A stretch of DNA of 64,000 nt from a virus: IMG/VR virus record IMGVR_UViG_3300034272_001608, positions 1 to 64,000 of that record; one strand, written 5' to 3'. Position 1 is the first letter of the stretch, and every line of letters starts with the position of its first letter. The translations under genes were made by a program, and so were the position numbers. Shown piece by piece: positions 2,444 to 45,733 of the stretch. Below the pieces are notes generated by a model, which made no database searches, was not told the DNA's origin, and saw only the letters and a list, made by a program, of their open reading frames with translations.

Positions 2444-2803
2444 TTAAACTAAAACGATGCCGCAGTTCGCTTCTGTACTAAAAATAGAAAAATTACAATT
2501 AGATTCTTGGATATCAATATTAACAATACAAGACGCCAATTCTATTGTAATTTCAAACGCACATCCGAAAGTACATTGAAGAATTTTGAACACTTCGCAG
2601 TTGTTACTGTCAACCAACTTCAACATAATTTCAGGTGCGGTTGTAAATATTGAAGGTATAACTGTATTATATTCAACAACAGGTGGGACTGGTCCTGTGG
2701 AAATGGTTCCTAAAAGTGTTTGGTTATTACCATATACATCTGAGATGTAAACACTAATAGGGTATGTGCCTCCCGATATGTCTGTAATTCTTACCTGTGT
2801 CAT
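2444..2803 (-). CDS. Small Cys-containing virion-associated protein, unknown
   Basis: 119 residues from the chosen ATG at 2803. This start makes an ATGA overlap with the stop of the upstream SprB-repeat gene, the usual translational coupling arrangement; an in-frame ATG at 2812 would add three residues and lengthen the overlap. The protein is beta-rich by composition, with an Ig-like alternation in the N-terminal half and six Cys in the C-terminal half. It resembles the C-terminal style of its adhesin-like neighbours but I do not recognise a family. Context suggests a small fibre or fibre-attachment component. Confidence 0.6.
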   Translation of the reverse strand: MTQVRITDISGGTYPISVYISDVYGNNQTLLGTISTGPVPPVVEYNTVIPSIFTTAPEIMLKLVDSNNCEVFKILQCTFGCAFEITIELASCIVNIDIQESNCNFSIFSTEANCGIVLV

Positions 2804-4935
2804 GATAAACAAATTATGTCATAATCAATAATCAAATCAATAACAATTTCTTGACCTTCTAATGAAGTATTATTACGACTTGTTTCTATTGTTATTTGAT
2901 TGTTAAGTTGGTCTATTGTAACATTACCAACACCTGGTATACCCAATAATAAAGTTCTAACCGTGTTATACCATTGATTATCGCTAGGTGCTTGTACTAA
3001 AGATGTTGATGTGAAAAAGTTTTGTGATGCAACAATACCCGATGGGTTTACTGAAACTTTTGCAGTGAATGTTGCACTTATTAAATCACAACTTGTATTT
3101 CCTGTTGTTAAATCATAGTACCCTTCATTTAACATTTGTAATAACCCAAATTTAGTTGGTGATTGAATGTTAAATATTTCTGCACCCATGGTGTATGTTT
3201 GATACGACGCATAGTTTTTGTTACAACTAATAGTTGTACTTCTTGTTAATGAACAACCGTTTGAATCAACAATAGTTAAAGAATATGTTCCAGCAGTTAA
3301 ACCGCTTATTTGAATTTGTTGTGGTTCGTTTGGAACGTTGTCTGACCAATTAAAACTAAATGGTGGCTCCCCTGATGTAATGAAAGCGGTTATTTTCCCG
3401 TTATTACCACTTCCGCAAGAAGTACTATATAAAGAATAGTTTAGTGGCTGACTACTTGGTACAAGTATATTTGTTGTTTGTGTACATCCATCAGCGTCTG
3501 TAACCGTTACAACGTGTGTACCTGAAGTTAAATTATTAAATGTAACCGCACTTAAGTTGGTGTCAAAAACATTTTGAACTCCGTCAACAGAATAATCCAA
3601 AGGTAAAGTACCCCCTGATGTTGAATATATTGTAACAGAACCATTGTTTTGATTACAACTTGTACCAACGACACTCGTTGAGATTGTAAATTTGTTTTGA
3701 GCAATTAAAGTAACCTCTTGAATTGCGGAACAACCTGTATTATCCGATATACCAACAGTATATGTACCTGACCCTAAATTTTCAAATATTTGTGTTGTTT
3801 GTGAATTGTTAACGTTTAACTGAGTACCATCAGGTGATATTAGTGTATAAGTATATGGTGTTGTACCACCAACAACATTAATTGTTATTGAACCGTTTGT
3901 ACTTGAACATGTTGAATTTTGTCCTTGAACTGTGATTGATGTTATTCCTCCTGGAGTTTCTAACGTTGTACCAGCAAACATTTGACACAGTCCCGCATCT
4001 GTAACTTGAAAATTGTATTGTCCCGCGGAAAGACCTGAAATACTAAAACTTCTGGCATATGATACTAATATATCTCCTGTTGAGGCCGAATAATAAAATG
4101 GTGATGTACCGCCAGTGATGGTCATATTTATCACACCATTTGATTGTAAACATGTTGGTTGTGTTGCGGTAAATATACCAAGACCAACTGGACTAACGTC
4201 AGTTATTTCAGCATCTTTAGAAACAGTACAACCAAAGGCATCGGTTACAGCAACAGAATAAAATCCTTTAGTAAGACCTGTAATTGTATCCCCTGTTTGT
4301 CCATTACTCCAAAGATAGGTATAAGGCGCAAGACCTGTTTGTCCTGTTACAATTATCTTACCAATTGGGGTTCCTCCGCAACTTGAGTTTGGTACCGAAT
4401 ATAACCCAAAATCTAAAGTATTAGATTCTTGTATTATAAAAGATGGTGTAAATGCGGTACATCCACCTAAATCAATAACCCCAATATAATAAGTTCCAGC
4501 GGTTAATTGTCCAAAGGTTATTGTCTCCGTGTTTGTAGAACCTGAAGTTATAAAAGTATTATTTATATCAAACAGTGAGAAATTGGTTGATGAATACAGA
4601 GACGTTGATGCTGCAATAACCCCCCCGTTATTTAATCCACATGTGGTATTTTGGGTGGCAACGATTGAGCCGCAAACTCCACTAGATATTGGTATGTTTA
4701 CATTAAATTCGTTGTTAACAGGTATAGTACTATCATTAACCCTTAATTGATAGACGTTACTTTCTAAATTAACTAATGTGGCAGGATTTGTTGTTACCGT
4801 CTGAGTCGGAAATGAAGGTGTAATAAATTCAACGGTATATGGTGGAGTACCTGAATTAATGAAAAGGTTAAGCGCACCAGAGCCGTTATTAAAACAATCT
4901 CCCGAAACTGATACATTATAATTTAATACCGCCAT
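2800..4935 (-). CDS. SprB-repeat tail protein (adhesin-like)
   Basis: 711 residues. At least six, probably seven, tandem repeats cover about residues 1-575. Each begins with Cys and an NNG or NG pair, continues as GGTxPYTYxWS or similar, then GLxxGxYxVxVTDxxGC. This is the pattern of SprB repeats (Pfam PF13573), named after the Flavobacterium johnsoniae gliding adhesin and abundant in secreted Bacteroidota proteins. Residues ~575-711 form a different C-terminal domain. The start overlaps the stop of the upstream gene as TAATG. In this setting it is probably an elongated tail fibre or baseplate-attached adhesin that contacts the host surface. Acquisition from a host adhesin is plausible but not shown by the sequence alone. 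Confidence 0.75.
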   Translation of the reverse strand: MAVLNYNVSVSGDCFNNGSGALNLFINSGTPPYTVEFITPSFPTQTVTTNPATLVNLESNVYQLRVNDSTIPVNNEFNVNIPISSGVCGSIVATQNTTCGLNNGGVIAASTSLYSSTNFSLFDINNTFITSGSTNTETITFGQLTAGTYYIGVIDLGGCTAFTPSFIIQESNTLDFGLYSVPNSSCGGTPIGKIIVTGQTGLAPYTYLWSNGQTGDTITGLTKGFYSVAVTDAFGCTVSKDAEITDVSPVGLGIFTATQPTCLQSNGVINMTITGGTSPFYYSASTGDILVSYARSFSISGLSAGQYNFQVTDAGLCQMFAGTTLETPGGITSITVQGQNSTCSSTNGSITINVVGGTTPYTYTLISPDGTQLNVNNSQTTQIFENLGSGTYTVGISDNTGCSAIQEVTLIAQNKFTISTSVVGTSCNQNNGSVTIYSTSGGTLPLDYSVDGVQNVFDTNLSAVTFNNLTSGTHVVTVTDADGCTQTTNILVPSSQPLNYSLYSTSCGSGNNGKITAFITSGEPPFSFNWSDNVPNEPQQIQISGLTAGTYSLTIVDSNGCSLTRSTTISCNKNYASYQTYTMGAEIFNIQSPTKFGLLQMLNEGYYDLTTGNTSCDLISATFTAKVSVNPSGIVASQNFFTSTSLVQAPSDNQWYNTVRTLLLGIPGVGNVTIDQLNNQITIETSRNNTSLEGQEIVIDLIIDYDIICLS

Positions 4936-41482: not shown

Positions 41483-43321
41483 TTATCGAGCGTAATTGTT
41501 TGCAACAGGTGCTTTAGTAGGATTTGAAGCTGTGGTAACATTTACAATATAATCTTTGAATCCTTGCTCATTTAGTTTATCATAAATAAGTTTTTGAATT
41601 TTTTCATCGCTAAATCCTGGAGGTGCCGTAATATCTATTTTAATTGCTCCCGCAATTTCAACTTTTGAGTTCTGTCCTCCCGTTTGTGCGGCACTTCCTG
41701 TTGTGGCATAAGCATCTCTAACTTGTGTTTCTCGTCCTTCAATAAGAGATGAAATTGGCTTACCTCCAGCAGTCTTTTGTTCTTCAGCTTTTGGAGCAAC
41801 CTTTCCAAGTACATAATCATAACCTTGTTGCATCGCCCTTTCAATTGCGGTTTTGTCTGTGGTGTTTGCCCTAGCTTCCTCAATTGCCTTTTTCATAGTA
41901 TCTTTGAACTTTTCGTTGACTTGTCCTGCTTGATTTCCTGCTCGTTCAAAATACTTTGAGAGTGCGTCTGTCGTAGACATGTTATTTTTGAATATATCAT
42001 CTTTCAGTTGTCCAACATCACTTAAAGCTCTCTCACTTTCTCTTCTTATATCTTTTGTGGAGCCAGCGTTTGAAACCGCACCAGTAAGTGCCGAAGCACC
42101 TCTACGAATACCTTCTCTTGTGTCTAATACCTGTCCCGCACTTACCGCCCCACCAACAACTTTAGCTCTAATTGCTGCAACATCGTTCTTAGTTATTTCA
42201 GAAAGATTCATTTGTGACCTTGCAAGTTCTTCTAATGTTTTGGGTCCTTCCTTTTGTTCTTTAATTAACTTATCAAACTCATCCTGAGTAAGTTCACTTA
42301 ACTTTCTTGTTTGTTCGATACCTGAATCATCTTTTATTTTAACTTCATATTCACCACCTTCACCCATCTTAGCAATGTTTGCTAAGTATTGTTTGTCATC
42401 CTCTTTTATATTTAAACCAGCCGCACCTATCGCAGAAATTCTTTTATCAGCCTCAGCCGCAGCTAAACCTAATTTTGACATTTCTTTTGCAGAAACACCT
42501 GTCTGTTGTTCCATTTCCCTAAGAGTAAGAACACCTTGAGGATTAATTTTAAATGTTTTTGTTTTTTCGTCGAAGTATGTAAATTGTTTTGCTACGTCAA
42601 CTAAACTATCTTGTAACGCGCCTGGGTCATTAATTGATGCGTTCATTAATGCAAATGGGTCGGCTAAATTTCCTGCCGCAACTCCCAGTCTTTGGAATGC
42701 CGCAGCTGTTTCAATCGCTCCTTCAGGACTTAATACTCTATCAGCCAATCTGAATGTCTCGCTCATGTCAAATCTTAACATAGAAGCTTGTGCCGCCATC
42801 TTAGTTAAACCAAGAACTCCACCCTCAAATTGGTAACGGTTCATTTGTTCCATGTTTTGGGTAACATCTCCCATAACCGCCTTGGCGTTACCACCAATAC
42901 TTTGAATATATTGTACAGATTCTTCTAAAGCCTCGGGTATTGTTTCGATACCCGCCCCAATGTCTGAAAAAGCTTTAGTAAGAGTTTGTGCATCTAGACC
43001 TAAAACTTTGTTAGCAGCAAATAATTTTTCAACATCTTCAGTATTGGCAATTACATTCCTTCTTGATTCAGCCGCAACTTTTCCAATAATATCTGCAACA
43101 TCTTTAATGTCACCACCTAACCTTGTTACATTGGGTGTTGCATCCGCAAGTGCAGTAGATATTTCACTAATACGTTGTCTACCTTGAGTAAAAGTTTCGT
43201 TTACTTGGTTGGAGTATTCTGATAATGCGTCTGATGCGGCGGTGAATGCCTTAAGGTCAAGGGTTAGTTGTCGTTGGACATCTTCACCAAATTTTTCCGC
43301 GGTACTTTTTTCGTCTGCCAT
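41483..43321 (-). CDS. Tail tape-measure protein
   Basis: 612 residues, almost entirely helical by composition, with Ala/Glu/Lys-rich heptad-like stretches (DLKAFTAASDALSEYSNQVN at the start; repeated AAEADKRI, EEARANTTD segments). The tape measure sets tail length and occupies the tube lumen. Its position directly after the chaperone pair and before large baseplate genes is the standard order for long-tailed phages. T4 uses gp29 (590 residues) for this, a good length match. No membrane helix is evident, unlike many tape measures. The C-terminal ~60 residues (IKIDITAPPGFSDEKIQ) form a small folded domain. Confidence 0.75.
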   Translation of the reverse strand: MADEKSTAEKFGEDVQRQLTLDLKAFTAASDALSEYSNQVNETFTQGRQRISEISTALADATPNVTRLGGDIKDVADIIGKVAAESRRNVIANTEDVEKLFAANKVLGLDAQTLTKAFSDIGAGIETIPEALEESVQYIQSIGGNAKAVMGDVTQNMEQMNRYQFEGGVLGLTKMAAQASMLRFDMSETFRLADRVLSPEGAIETAAAFQRLGVAAGNLADPFALMNASINDPGALQDSLVDVAKQFTYFDEKTKTFKINPQGVLTLREMEQQTGVSAKEMSKLGLAAAEADKRISAIGAAGLNIKEDDKQYLANIAKMGEGGEYEVKIKDDSGIEQTRKLSELTQDEFDKLIKEQKEGPKTLEELARSQMNLSEITKNDVAAIRAKVVGGAVSAGQVLDTREGIRRGASALTGAVSNAGSTKDIRRESERALSDVGQLKDDIFKNNMSTTDALSKYFERAGNQAGQVNEKFKDTMKKAIEEARANTTDKTAIERAMQQGYDYVLGKVAPKAEEQKTAGGKPISSLIEGRETQVRDAYATTGSAAQTGGQNSKVEIAGAIKIDITAPPGFSDEKIQKLIYDKLNEQGFKDYIVNVTTASNPTKAPVANNYAR

Positions 43322-43353: not shown

Positions 43354-43379
43354 AAAAGGACTGATTTTTCAGTCCTTTT
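43354..43379 (-). terminator. Hairpin terminator after the chaperone pair
   Basis: Perfect 11-bp stem AAAAGGACTGA / TCAGTCCTTTT with a 4-base loop. The stop codon of the 59-codon extension lies inside one arm. The hairpin is near-symmetric and could act on either strand. Confidence 0.8.
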
Positions 43380-43548
43380 TATTATCTTCTAACCATTTAT
43401 CTAAAAGATATTTCCTAACAAACAATGGCATAATTAAGAAATCTTGATAAGAGATGTTTAATAATTTGTTTAAATAATAGAATTCGTCTATTTGTCCTTT
43501 TCTATAATCAGAAGAAAGGACGAAAAAAGTCGACCCCAAAGCCAACAT
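43369..43548 (-). CDS. Out-of-frame extension of the tail-assembly chaperone (gp51-like)
   Basis: 59-codon frame lying +1 relative to the 247-residue chaperone and overlapping its last 41 bases. It begins with ATG at 43548 directly after a stop codon, or is reached by frameshifting at the T6 run (43523-43528), where Phe tRNA on TTT TTT C can slip to TTC. The protein part past the overlap (SSDYRKGQIDEFYYLNKLL, then ISYQDFLIMPLFVRKYLLDK) has the helix-Trp/Leu-rich look of the C-terminal parts of tail-assembly chaperones such as the T domain of lambda gpGT and T4 gp51. A fusion would be about 293 residues. Its stop is in the terminator stem. Separate translation from the ATG is the alternative. 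Confidence 0.7.
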   Translation of the reverse strand: MLALGSTFFVLSSDYRKGQIDEFYYLNKLLNISYQDFLIMPLFVRKYLLDKWLEDNKKD

Positions 43549-44251
43549 TCACTGTAAGCTTTTCTCCTGACGGGGCCAATATTGTTCTATTTAAATCTAA
43601 TCGTGGTTCATTGTCATCCATAAATTGTCTGATATACTTTGAATCTGCAATTGGCATCTGCTCGATGAACTTTGCAATCTCCGCCTTATCAGTTACCCCA
43701 TTAATCTCGATTATTTGTTTGTTTAATCTCCAAGTAACTTTTGGAACCGTTCTACCTTGTGGGTAAGAGTCGGCCATTTTTTGAACGTCCATAATTTCAC
43801 CATAAGTCATTGGTTTAAGTTTAACACTCGTTTGTGACTTTGGTAAAGTTGTTATGAATGTACCGTCTTCTTGTGGTTCTTGACCTTTAATAATTTCCAA
43901 AGAGTCTAATCTAACCGTTCCCTTGAATGGTTTTTTAGTGGAGGGGTCAATTAAATTTAAATCAATTTCAGGACCAAAAGCAGTATTTCTTAAAAAGATT
44001 AATATTGCTTCAATGTCACCTTCCATTAAATCCTCAATACGAACATCTGGTTCGTATATCTTTGCTCTCAATAATGACTGTGTCATATCTGTACCACCAC
44101 CCATTAAGATATTCTCGTCACTTGCCGTAAGATAACCTACTTTAATAGATTTCTTTTTGTTTTTGTAGAATACACCTTGTGTTGGTAAAGGAACTACATC
44201 ATGTGGTAATGAAAAGTTTGCTTGACCGTATTCTTTTGCTTGATTGTCCAT
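43508..44251 (-). CDS. Tail-assembly chaperone / gp26-like protein
   Basis: 247 residues. It resembles the T4 gp26 / T4_baseplate family: early PLPTQGVFYKNKKKSIKVGY, LTASDENILMG, a central VKLKPMTYGEIMDVQKMADS, and an end rich in hydrophobics (VNVGFGVDFFRPFF). It lies between tube and tape measure, where long-tailed phages encode a chaperone whose product is extended by frameshifting. An overlapping frame at 43369-43548 fits that pattern. The 5' leader contains an 11-bp stem hairpin (44261-44290) after a TATTTAT element at 44314-44320. Role: keeps tape measure soluble and helps nucleate tube assembly (family knowledge). Confidence 0.7.
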   Translation of the reverse strand: MDNQAKEYGQANFSLPHDVVPLPTQGVFYKNKKKSIKVGYLTASDENILMGGGTDMTQSLLRAKIYEPDVRIEDLMEGDIEAILIFLRNTAFGPEIDLNLIDPSTKKPFKGTVRLDSLEIIKGQEPQEDGTFITTLPKSQTSVKLKPMTYGEIMDVQKMADSYPQGRTVPKVTWRLNKQIIEINGVTDKAEIAKFIEQMPIADSKYIRQFMDDNEPRLDLNRTILAPSGEKLTVNVGFGVDFFRPFF

Positions 44252-44255
44252 ATAA

Positions 44256-44290
44256 AAAATTAACCGTAAAGTTTATGTGCTTTACGGTTA
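44256..44290 (-). terminator. Hairpin after tail tube gene (terminator or leader structure)
   Basis: Perfect 11-bp stem TAACCGTAAAG / CTTTACGGTTA with an 8-base loop, then ATTTTTTAT on the minus strand. It follows the tube stop by ~34 bases and precedes the chaperone ATG by 10. A TATTTAT element lies upstream of it at 44314-44320, so it could also be in the chaperone mRNA leader. Confidence 0.75.
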
Positions 44291-44323
44291 AATATAATTG
44301 TAATTAGTTTTTTATAAATAGTA

Positions 44324-44812
44324 TTAGTATACTAACACACATCTATCCATTCTCAAAGTTGCCGCGATTGTTGCTAAACCGTCTTGGTTATAAGCCAAGG
44401 TGTTAAAGTTAACATCTGTTAGGAATGTACCATATAGAATCCACTTTTCAACAACAACACCCGTTGGGTCCAACATCTCAAGGTCCACATCTTTTTTGTA
44501 ACCCGCTGCATATCCCATACGACCTGTTACTGACTCGGCGTGTAAACGCACCCACTCCATAAGAGCTTGTGCCGCAGAAGGTCCAATTGGGTCTCTGAAT
44601 GTTACGTTAATTGTTTGCCAGTTAAATCTACCTGCAACATATGTTGAGGTGTTCAAAAATGGAATCTCTGTCGCCCCAATTGTAATGTGTGGTCTAGCCG
44701 CAGATTCTACGAACCACTCATTAATACCTAAACTTGATGGAAACCTTAGAATGAATCGGTTTTGACGTTTCGGTTCGTAAGGAATCGGCATTTTCATCAG
44801 TAAATCAGCCAT
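44324..44812 (-). CDS. gp19: Tail tube protein gp19
   Basis: 162 residues, identical in length range to T4 gp19 (163). Contains PYEPKRQNRFILRFPSSLGI at the start, FNWQTINVTFRDPIGPSAAQ in the middle and VVEKWILYGTFLTDVNF toward the end, all typical of the T4-like gp19 tube family. Hexamers stack to form the inner tube through which DNA passes. The gene lies downstream of sheath and a HAD-like gene, and is followed by a hairpin. A TATTTAT element is 33 bases before the ATG. Confidence 0.88.
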   Translation of the reverse strand: MADLLMKMPIPYEPKRQNRFILRFPSSLGINEWFVESAARPHITIGATEIPFLNTSTYVAGRFNWQTINVTFRDPIGPSAAQALMEWVRLHAESVTGRMGYAAGYKKDVDLEMLDPTGVVVEKWILYGTFLTDVNFNTLAYNQDGLATIAATLRMDRCVLVY

Positions 44813-44902: not shown

Positions 44903-45733
44903 TTATTTTACTTCCTTTTTAGTGCCTCCAGCAGTAGAATAAGTCTTAACTATATTATCTGGTTTATTTTTAAAATGCTTTTGCATTACTTCTATATTTC
45001 TAGGGTCATCGTCACTAAAACCTATTGTTGGTTCTGCTGGAATAAATTTATTACCTATATCATTTTTTAAGTAAGCTCTTTTATTTAGAACTGCTGCCAT
45101 CCCTTTAATATAACTCACAAAATCTTCCATTGCACGGACCTTCGCCTCTTCAGGATTTTGAGCCCCCTTATCGTCCCCAAAAGAAACGGGGTGGTATTTG
45201 TTAAGTTCTAAATATGACTTGATTAATTCATCGTCGCTCATTTCGTCTTCACCAACAAACGACCTATATTTTTTTAAATTTTTAATCAACTCTTCTTTGT
45301 CAATACCATTAAACCCTTCTATAATATAATTGTAGACAGCTTCTTTTAAAGTGCTTGGGTTATGACCTCTCGCAGTAATGATTGAAAAAATTGACCCGTT
45401 ATTAATCGCCTCTCTAAAATCATCAAAAGCTGGACCAGTTTTGGCTCTCATTGCATCCACTAAAAAATCTTTATCTCCCTCGGTTCTAAAATTTCTAAAA
45501 GGATTTTCTCCAAACCCTACAATCATTTTACCCTTATATTCAAAAGGTTCTTTTCCAATATGATGTCTATGTTCCGCAAAATCATCAGTAGACATTCCAA
45601 CTTCATCTCCGTCCTCATCTTTTACAATAATTTTTGTAGGCATGTGGACAATATTGTCGTCCCAATCGAACGCATAATATTTTAAATCTGGTGAACCCTC
45701 ACCCTTAAACCCTTCTGTAAACTCTTTTCTCAT
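44903..45733 (-). CDS. HAD-superfamily phosphatase-like protein
   Basis: 276 residues. HAD motif I is FDWDDN with Asp23 and Asp25. A motif II-like Thr follows in FSIITARGHN near residues 117-126, and a motif IV-like acidic set ends GFSDDDPRN near 245. HAD enzymes transfer phosphate through the first Asp; likely substrates include nucleotides, sugars, DNA or RNA ends. The N-terminal ~17 residues (MRKEFTEGFKGEG) precede the core and could be a targeting tail. Its place between sheath and tube is unusual for a metabolic enzyme. The middle (residues ~135-215) is a helical cap-type insertion. Substrate unknown. Confidence 0.7.
   Translation of the reverse strand: MRKEFTEGFKGEGSPDLKYYAFDWDDNIVHMPTKIIVKDEDGDEVGMSTDDFAEHRHHIGKEPFEYKGKMIVGFGENPFRNFRTEGDKDFLVDAMRAKTGPAFDDFREAINNGSIFSIITARGHNPSTLKEAVYNYIIEGFNGIDKEELIKNLKKYRSFVGEDEMSDDELIKSYLELNKYHPVSFGDDKGAQNPEEAKVRAMEDFVSYIKGMAAVLNKRAYLKNDIGNKFIPAEPTIGFSDDDPRNIEVMQKHFKNKPDNIVKTYSTAGGTKKEVK

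Follow-up and report, generated by a model that had tools for sequence, protein, structure and literature searches.

The window analyzed here is a stretch of 64,000 nucleotides (positions 1 to 64,000 of the IMG/VR virus record IMGVR_UViG_3300034272_001608). Its minus strand contains an ORF at 44251-43508 for a 247 aa tail assembly chaperone (TAC), designated TAC-N, that ends with GTC GAC TTT TTT CGT CCT TTC TTC TGA. A second ORF of 59 aa (43548-43369, minus strand) lies in the +1 frame relative to TAC-N (offset 703 = 3 x 234 + 1) and overlaps its 3' end by 41 bases. An earlier note, made from the DNA alone, had reported this 59-codon frame, its +1 relation and 41-base overlap, the T6 run at 43523-43528, and the end of the frame in a terminator stem, and both coordinates and frame were confirmed. 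With TTTC read as one +1 step, a fusion protein of 293 aa is predicted, in line with the approximately 293 residues that had been proposed. The features of the locus are as follows.

43508..44251, minus strand: TAC-N, tail assembly chaperone, 0 frame (PF12322, 34.2 bits; phrog_150)
43369..43521, minus strand: C-terminal domain (C domain), +1 frame, 50 residues after the slip Phe (from homologues and dN/dS)
43520..43528, minus strand: shift site TTT TTT CGT, with the second TTT (43525-43523) as P-site codon and CGT (43522-43520) as A-site codon
43510-43508, minus strand: TAC-N stop codon TGA, end of the 0 frame
43369..43400, minus strand: terminator-like hairpin containing the +1-frame stop TGA, AAAAAGGACTGAAAAATCAGTCCTTTTTG
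43532..43573 (approximate to 2 bases), minus strand: predicted 5' hairpin with CCCC/GGGG closure and inner hairpin
44324..44812, minus strand: tail tube gene, upstream of TAC-N (phrog_4542, 84.8 bits)
41483..43321, minus strand: gene in tape-measure position, downstream, 612 aa, without significant family match

The sheath gene is located further upstream of the tail tube gene, and the downstream 612 aa gene occupies the position of the annotated tape measure gene in phages SP-15, LIS04, and immuto. TAC-N therefore lies where a tail assembly chaperone is expected, between the tube gene and the tape measure as assigned by position. A 276 aa protein with an FDWDDN motif is encoded between the sheath and tube genes (44903-45733, minus strand) and had no Pfam or PHROG match. 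Another terminator-like hairpin is found directly upstream of the chaperone start (44262-44298, minus strand, AACCGTAAAG...CTTTACGGTTAATTTTTT). No tRNA genes were found within the window.

TAC-N belongs to the Pfam family PF12322 (T4_baseplate), with a score of 34.2 bits at a gathering threshold of 24.5. An AlphaFold2 model, built from an alignment of 47 relatives from which rows of annotated phage records had been left out, reached a pLDDT of 87. Its best structural matches were the HK97 TAC (2ob9, Z 5.9, 79 aligned residues, 3.2 Å) and YqbN (3klu, Z 5.4); the next match had a Z of 3.1, and no other exceeded this value. A Foldseek search of the model against the PDB gave nothing under an E-value of 0.001, with the HK97 TAC by far at the top in probability. 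The model also matched viral structure models labeled gp26 or baseplate hub. With Z scores below 8, these results provide moderate evidence for a TAC fold of the modeled protein. Both T4 gp26 and T4 gp51 match PF12322, and gp51 extends 48 residues beyond the domain. From the PF12322 match, the gene order, the TAC fold, and the presence of both T4 proteins in PF12322, the window gene was assigned to the T4 gp26/gp51 chaperone family. The extension alone retrieved nothing useful from Pfam and PHROGs, and neither the fusion HMM nor the C-domain HMM significantly matched T4 gp26/gp51; an alignment of the C-domain model to the final 31 residues of gp51 scored less than zero bits. The link to T4 consequently rests on PF12322 and on phage KVP40 (see below). 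In bacterial or archaeal genome contigs, no relatives were found.

All close relatives (n = 80, 73-100% identity) contained TTT TTT or a near variant followed by CGY CCT TTC TTC TRA, and the +1 frame of 59-61 residues was kept in 80/80. An HMM of the C domain, seeded from the +1 extensions and run over all three forward frames, located the domain near 234 of 235 distinct loci; it was in the +1 frame in 231 and in the -1/+2 frame in three. The programmed frameshift that the earlier note had proposed for a T4-like gp26/gp51 chaperone is supported by these relatives (+1 C domain in 231/234). The +1 arrangement was also present in the distant cultured phages SP-15, LIS04, Mel-JY01, and GXN1, and a +1-frame extension in a 484-kb metagenomic phage. 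The cultured Flavobacterium phage immuto has a CUU_UGG site with CTT_T, which is the slip codon of the RF2 gene prfB. What the family conserves is an overlapping-frame C domain without an obligatory start codon of its own. The window does not have the lambda-type arrangement, a C domain in the -1 frame with an X_XXY_YYZ heptamer, and 231 loci are +1. The database records of immuto, Mel-JY01, and SP-15 list the +1 C domain as a hypothetical protein of its own, whereas that of LIS04 leaves it unannotated (the domains of these four phages are at L267 4351-4461, L083 4770-5006, L085 4755-4874, and L084 4742-4971).

At the position of the two Phe codons and the following codon, the 229 classified loci had TTT TTT TGG (112), TTT TTT CGT (55), TTT TTT CGC (32), or TTC TTT TGG (12); rarer were TTT CTT TGG (8), CTT TTT TGG (3), TTT TTT TAC/TAT (3), and TTC TTT CGT (2), with TTT TTT AGT and TTT TTT CAC found once each. 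Outside the 229, locus L082 has AAC TTT CTA. Of the 229 classified sites, 228 had TTT or CTT as the P-site codon and a T or C as the next base. This YTT_Y pattern fits a single forward step of the P-site tRNA, because UUU can re-pair to UUU or UUC, and CUU to UUU. The exception is LIS04 (UUU_UUU_A), in which +1 re-pairing is impossible at the second UUU and possible at the first. In 23 loci (TTC TTT, TTT CTT, AAC TTT) the T run is only T3-T4 and the +1 frame relation is kept.

These natural variants bear on the direction of the slip, which the earlier note had left as +1 or -2. A -2 shift at T6, as in phage Mu, would enter the same frame with one extra Phe (...DFFFVLSSDYR rather than ...DFFVLSSDYR; the tryptic junction peptides predicted for the window are LTVNVGFGVDFFVLSSDYR for the +1 fusion and LTVNVGFGVDFFFVLSSDYR for the -2 fusion). 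The window itself permits it, as the -2 codon of the second tRNA is also TTT. However, since the run is only T3-T4, the 23 short-run loci would need mismatched -2 re-pairing, and yet they keep the +1-frame C domain; re-pairing two bases back is not possible family-wide. Moreover, T or C 3' of the P-site codon (228/229) is required by a +1 but not by a -2 step. The earlier alternative can thus be narrowed toward +1 by 23 variants that break -2 but preserve +1 re-pairing, and we consider a -2 shift very unlikely.

Internal initiation or coupled re-initiation could instead yield the C domain as a small protein of its own; separate translation from an internal ATG had been allowed for in the earlier note, and the +1 frame of the window has an ATG at 43548. 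In favor of this reading, the C domain starts with its own ATG in loci L174 and L180, an ATG lies 5-14 nt downstream of where the TAC-N stop codon begins in most cyanophages, and the domain is annotated as a separate gene in KVP40. However, 70/229 loci lack any ATG, GTG, or TTG ahead of the site in the +1 frame, and for 45 of the 70 such a codon first occurs at least 25 codons inside the C domain; a +1-frame stop is located within three codons of the site in 32/229. The window ATG is a by-product of 0-frame Asn-Val (AAT GTN), and the equivalent ATG in L107, L153, L132, and L108 meets an in-frame stop ahead of the C domain. Constraint at the nucleotide level also acts on the slip codon. Separate translation from the internal ATG is hence disfavored, and for the family as a whole we assign it a very low probability.

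Relatives in which the two parts are clearly separate genes, named beforehand as a refuting observation, do exist (L174, L180, and L290), but they number only three among 235 loci, and the slip motif is missing as well from two of the three. In L174 and L180, an ATG-started C-domain ORF follows just after the TAC-N stop in the +2 frame, an arrangement that, judged from the sequences, would represent a switch from frameshifting to separate translation. In L290 (about 2691-3723) the slip site is mutated to TTC TTC TGG. A GIY-YIG homing endonuclease ORF is situated there between TAC-N and the separate C-domain ORF, the start of the latter looks like part of the TAC-N end that was duplicated and fused in frame, and an Rfam search of L290 gave no match. 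In L269 (LR756511, 595 kb; 4180-4430) the C domain lies in the -1 frame, to which either U_UUU_UUC or a TAATG overlap could give access. The +1 motif is lost in L174, L290, and L269, which would follow if it had no role besides the shift; CTT_T is still present in L180. The fusion is accordingly not obligatory in every relative (L174, L180, L290).

Transcriptional slippage on the T6/T7 run, with one U lost or two gained, would also join the frames, and runs of T6-T7 are present in about 90% of the loci. This process would need a long homopolymer in all members, but the run is only T3-T4 in 23 loci with an unchanged frame relation; it also leaves unexplained why the run is followed by a fixed rare CGY and why CTT_T variants occur. 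We rate slippage as extremely unlikely. The weakest alternative, a +1 frame open by chance, could appeal to its short length but is refuted, with negligible remaining probability, by the homologues in 231/234 loci and by a dN/dS of the extension (80 distinct sequences of the window clade) of 0.065 in the +1 frame versus 0.79 and 1.93 in the other two. Across 40 codons of the extension, third positions varied in 38, first positions in 22, and second positions in 16.

Constraint on the site itself was also evident. All 85 distinct rows of the window clade (87/87 sequences) encode the slip Phe as TTT, and the next codon is CGY in 87/87. Arg244 is always CGT or CGC, whereas elsewhere in the gene CGY accounts for 44 of 761 Arg codons (6%); usage in the window is 3.2 per 1000 codons for CGT and 0.2 for CGC. 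The synonymous entropy of conserved columns in the last eight codons of TAC-N was 0.175 on average, compared with 0.97 for columns elsewhere, which come from the same rows and so carry the same relatedness. Entropy as low was obtained in 0/20,000 random draws, which take columns as independent and ignore kinship. The low synonymous variation near the site derives partly from double coding (CCT TTC TTC is also CTT TCT TCT), which is in itself evidence for the reading of both frames.

Upstream of the site, CCCC (about 43573-43570) is predicted to pair with GGGG (43537-43534), which immediately precedes GTC GAC, and to enclose an inner hairpin (CTTACAG/...GTTGG); the 3' arm of the predicted structure stops 8 nt before the P-site codon. 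CCCC, TCAGGAGA, and GGGG are invariant in the window clade. The wobble C of the Ala/Thr codon among these bases was found in 87/87 sequences and in about 10% of such codons elsewhere. In five sequences, one pair of the inner stem carried a compensatory replacement of A-U by G-C, other support coming mostly from invariant pairs. Compared with synonymous-codon shuffles, the hairpin was far more stable (mean z of -2.7 in 16 sequences); the mean z was -0.16 for an upstream control region and -0.69 for the TGG group. A competing stem of TCAGGAGA with TCTTCTGA across the slip site was also predicted and is indistinguishable from the 5' hairpin. The possibility that TCAGGAGA is a Shine-Dalgarno sequence for the internal ATG was rejected: it is 15 nt away and conserved even where the ATG leads nowhere. 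A refolding upstream hairpin reportedly stimulates +1 frameshifting in yeast and, mimicking a Shine-Dalgarno duplex, in a 70S system (PMC6321510). For the window clade, the data are suggestive of a 5' hairpin that stimulates the +1 shift.

T4-like relatives pointed in the opposite direction. In PBECO4, PA5oct, K64-1, Atu_ph07, Bellamy, KVP40, XacN1, and Vibrio phage 2.275 (L353-L360), TAC-N ends with NNT TTT TTY, so that a U_UUU_UUY heptamer covers the two Phe codons, and the frame reading on is -1. The C-domain HMM matched this -1 frame in KVP40 (E 2e-8), Vibrio phage 2.275 (5e-6), and Bellamy (1e-5), and more weakly in the others; the KVP40 match is ORF.0327, annotated as similar to the gp51 C-terminus. 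All 79 distinct cyanophage-type loci (L361-L440) had TTTTTTC and a C domain in the -1 frame; because most also have an ATG at a distance of 5-14 nt from the first base of the TAC-N stop codon, separate translation may occur there. The -1 C domain of T4-like and jumbo phages is deposited as a separate small gene. From these sequences, cyanophages, KVP40, and the jumbo relatives appear to use a -1 slip at the same two Phe codons. In a tree of 44 TAC-N proteins, two direction changes were needed (bootstrap 2-3, long branches), and well-supported branches forced at least one. Given this tree and the -1 versus +1 C domains at the same codons, the predicted shift direction has switched one or more times within a single homologous family. 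The combined reading, that the family reversed direction between -1 at U_UUU_UUY and +1 at UUU_UUU_Y and that the +1 shift of the window clade is driven by a refolding 5' hairpin, is tentative; we regard it as plausible, though just short of probable.

Among the closest known systems is lambda gpG/gpGT, which likewise has a gene between tube and tape measure, a short and a long form, a C domain in another frame, and a TAC fold. Unlike the window family, in which the shift is +1, no X_XXY_YYZ heptamer is used, and TAC-N is of PF12322, lambda shifts by -1. T4 gp26/gp51 share PF12322 with the window gene, but T4 has two paralogous genes whereas the window group has one gene with a +1 shift. Vladimirov, Gautam, and Davidson, writing on these T4-like TACs in 2022, reportedly argue in their title for another mechanism in T4. 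PMC12846349 refers to Vladimirov 2022 for -1 signals made of poly-T in TAC-N genes of the T4-like type. For tailed phages as a whole, -1, -2, or +1 shifts are used for this purpose, with T4 named as the exception (PMC5009743).

The predicted shift site of the window, with UUU_C in the P site, CGN next, and a +1 product frame, belongs to the UUU_CGN class. This class of +1 sites includes influenza A PA-X, where UUU_CGU has been proven to direct the shift, and amalgaviruses (Firth 2012, PMC3498833). The UUU_CGU core, the P-site Phe slip to UUC, and the rare A-site Arg codon are alike in both; however, those are eukaryotic viruses, whereas the window family concerns a phage tail chaperone and also has UUU_UGG, CUU_UGG, and a 5' hairpin. 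A +1 shift at TTT-CGC was proposed in the tail chaperone of HF1-group haloviruses, also between tube and tape measure (Dyall-Smith 2020, PMC7230728), and a +1 shift was likewise proposed for that of halovirus HSTV-2 (Atkins 2016, PMC5009743). Halovirus HF2 TAC-N (L352 36263-36810) ends with AAG TTT CGC AGA TAG, followed by a +1 open frame; unlike the window gene it has an archaeal host, no PF12322 match, and no match to the family HMM, and UUU_CGY is probably convergent in the two. Eight relatives and immuto share the CUU_U slip with Escherichia coli prfB (CUU_UGA), but there a stop codon occupies the A site, in the relatives sense UGG. UUU_CGN +1 sites are thus already known, and what appears to be new is a variant in a phage gp26/gp51-type chaperone, not a new kind of site.

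Altogether, a programmed shift into the +1 frame of this gp26/gp51-family chaperone is strongly supported by the comparison of relatives, and a frameshifting tail assembly chaperone, with TAC-N of 247 aa plus a minority +1 fusion TAC-NC of 293 aa, is in our view the very probable explanation. In the proposed mechanism, the majority of ribosomes would terminate at the TGA at 43510-43508 and release TAC-N. In a minority, the peptidyl-tRNA-Phe on the second UUU (43525-43523), with the rare CGU in the A site, would slip by +1, re-pair from UUU to the better-matching UUC, and reading would continue to TAC-NC. The hairpin refolding just behind the ribosome would probably assist this forward push in the window clade. 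In Salmonella, tRNA-Phe on UUU-CAA slips +1 under A-site starvation, as established by product sequencing (PMC3617221). By analogy with lambda gpG/gpGT, TAC-N may form a coat on the tape measure protein, and the C domain may serve to recruit tube subunits.

On this explanation, +1 frameshifting, usually thought rare in phages, would be fixed, with the same core sequence as in PA-X, across a very large contractile-tailed group with hosts that include at least Flavobacterium, Microcystis, Bacillus, Listeria, and Streptococcus. The more than 230 natural variants set the rules of the site, YTT_Y before a slow codon, and correct the annotation of cultured relatives, in which the C domain was missed or named a separate hypothetical protein. 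The family would further represent a natural experiment on slip direction, in which nearly the same T run gives -1 or +1 depending on the lineage.
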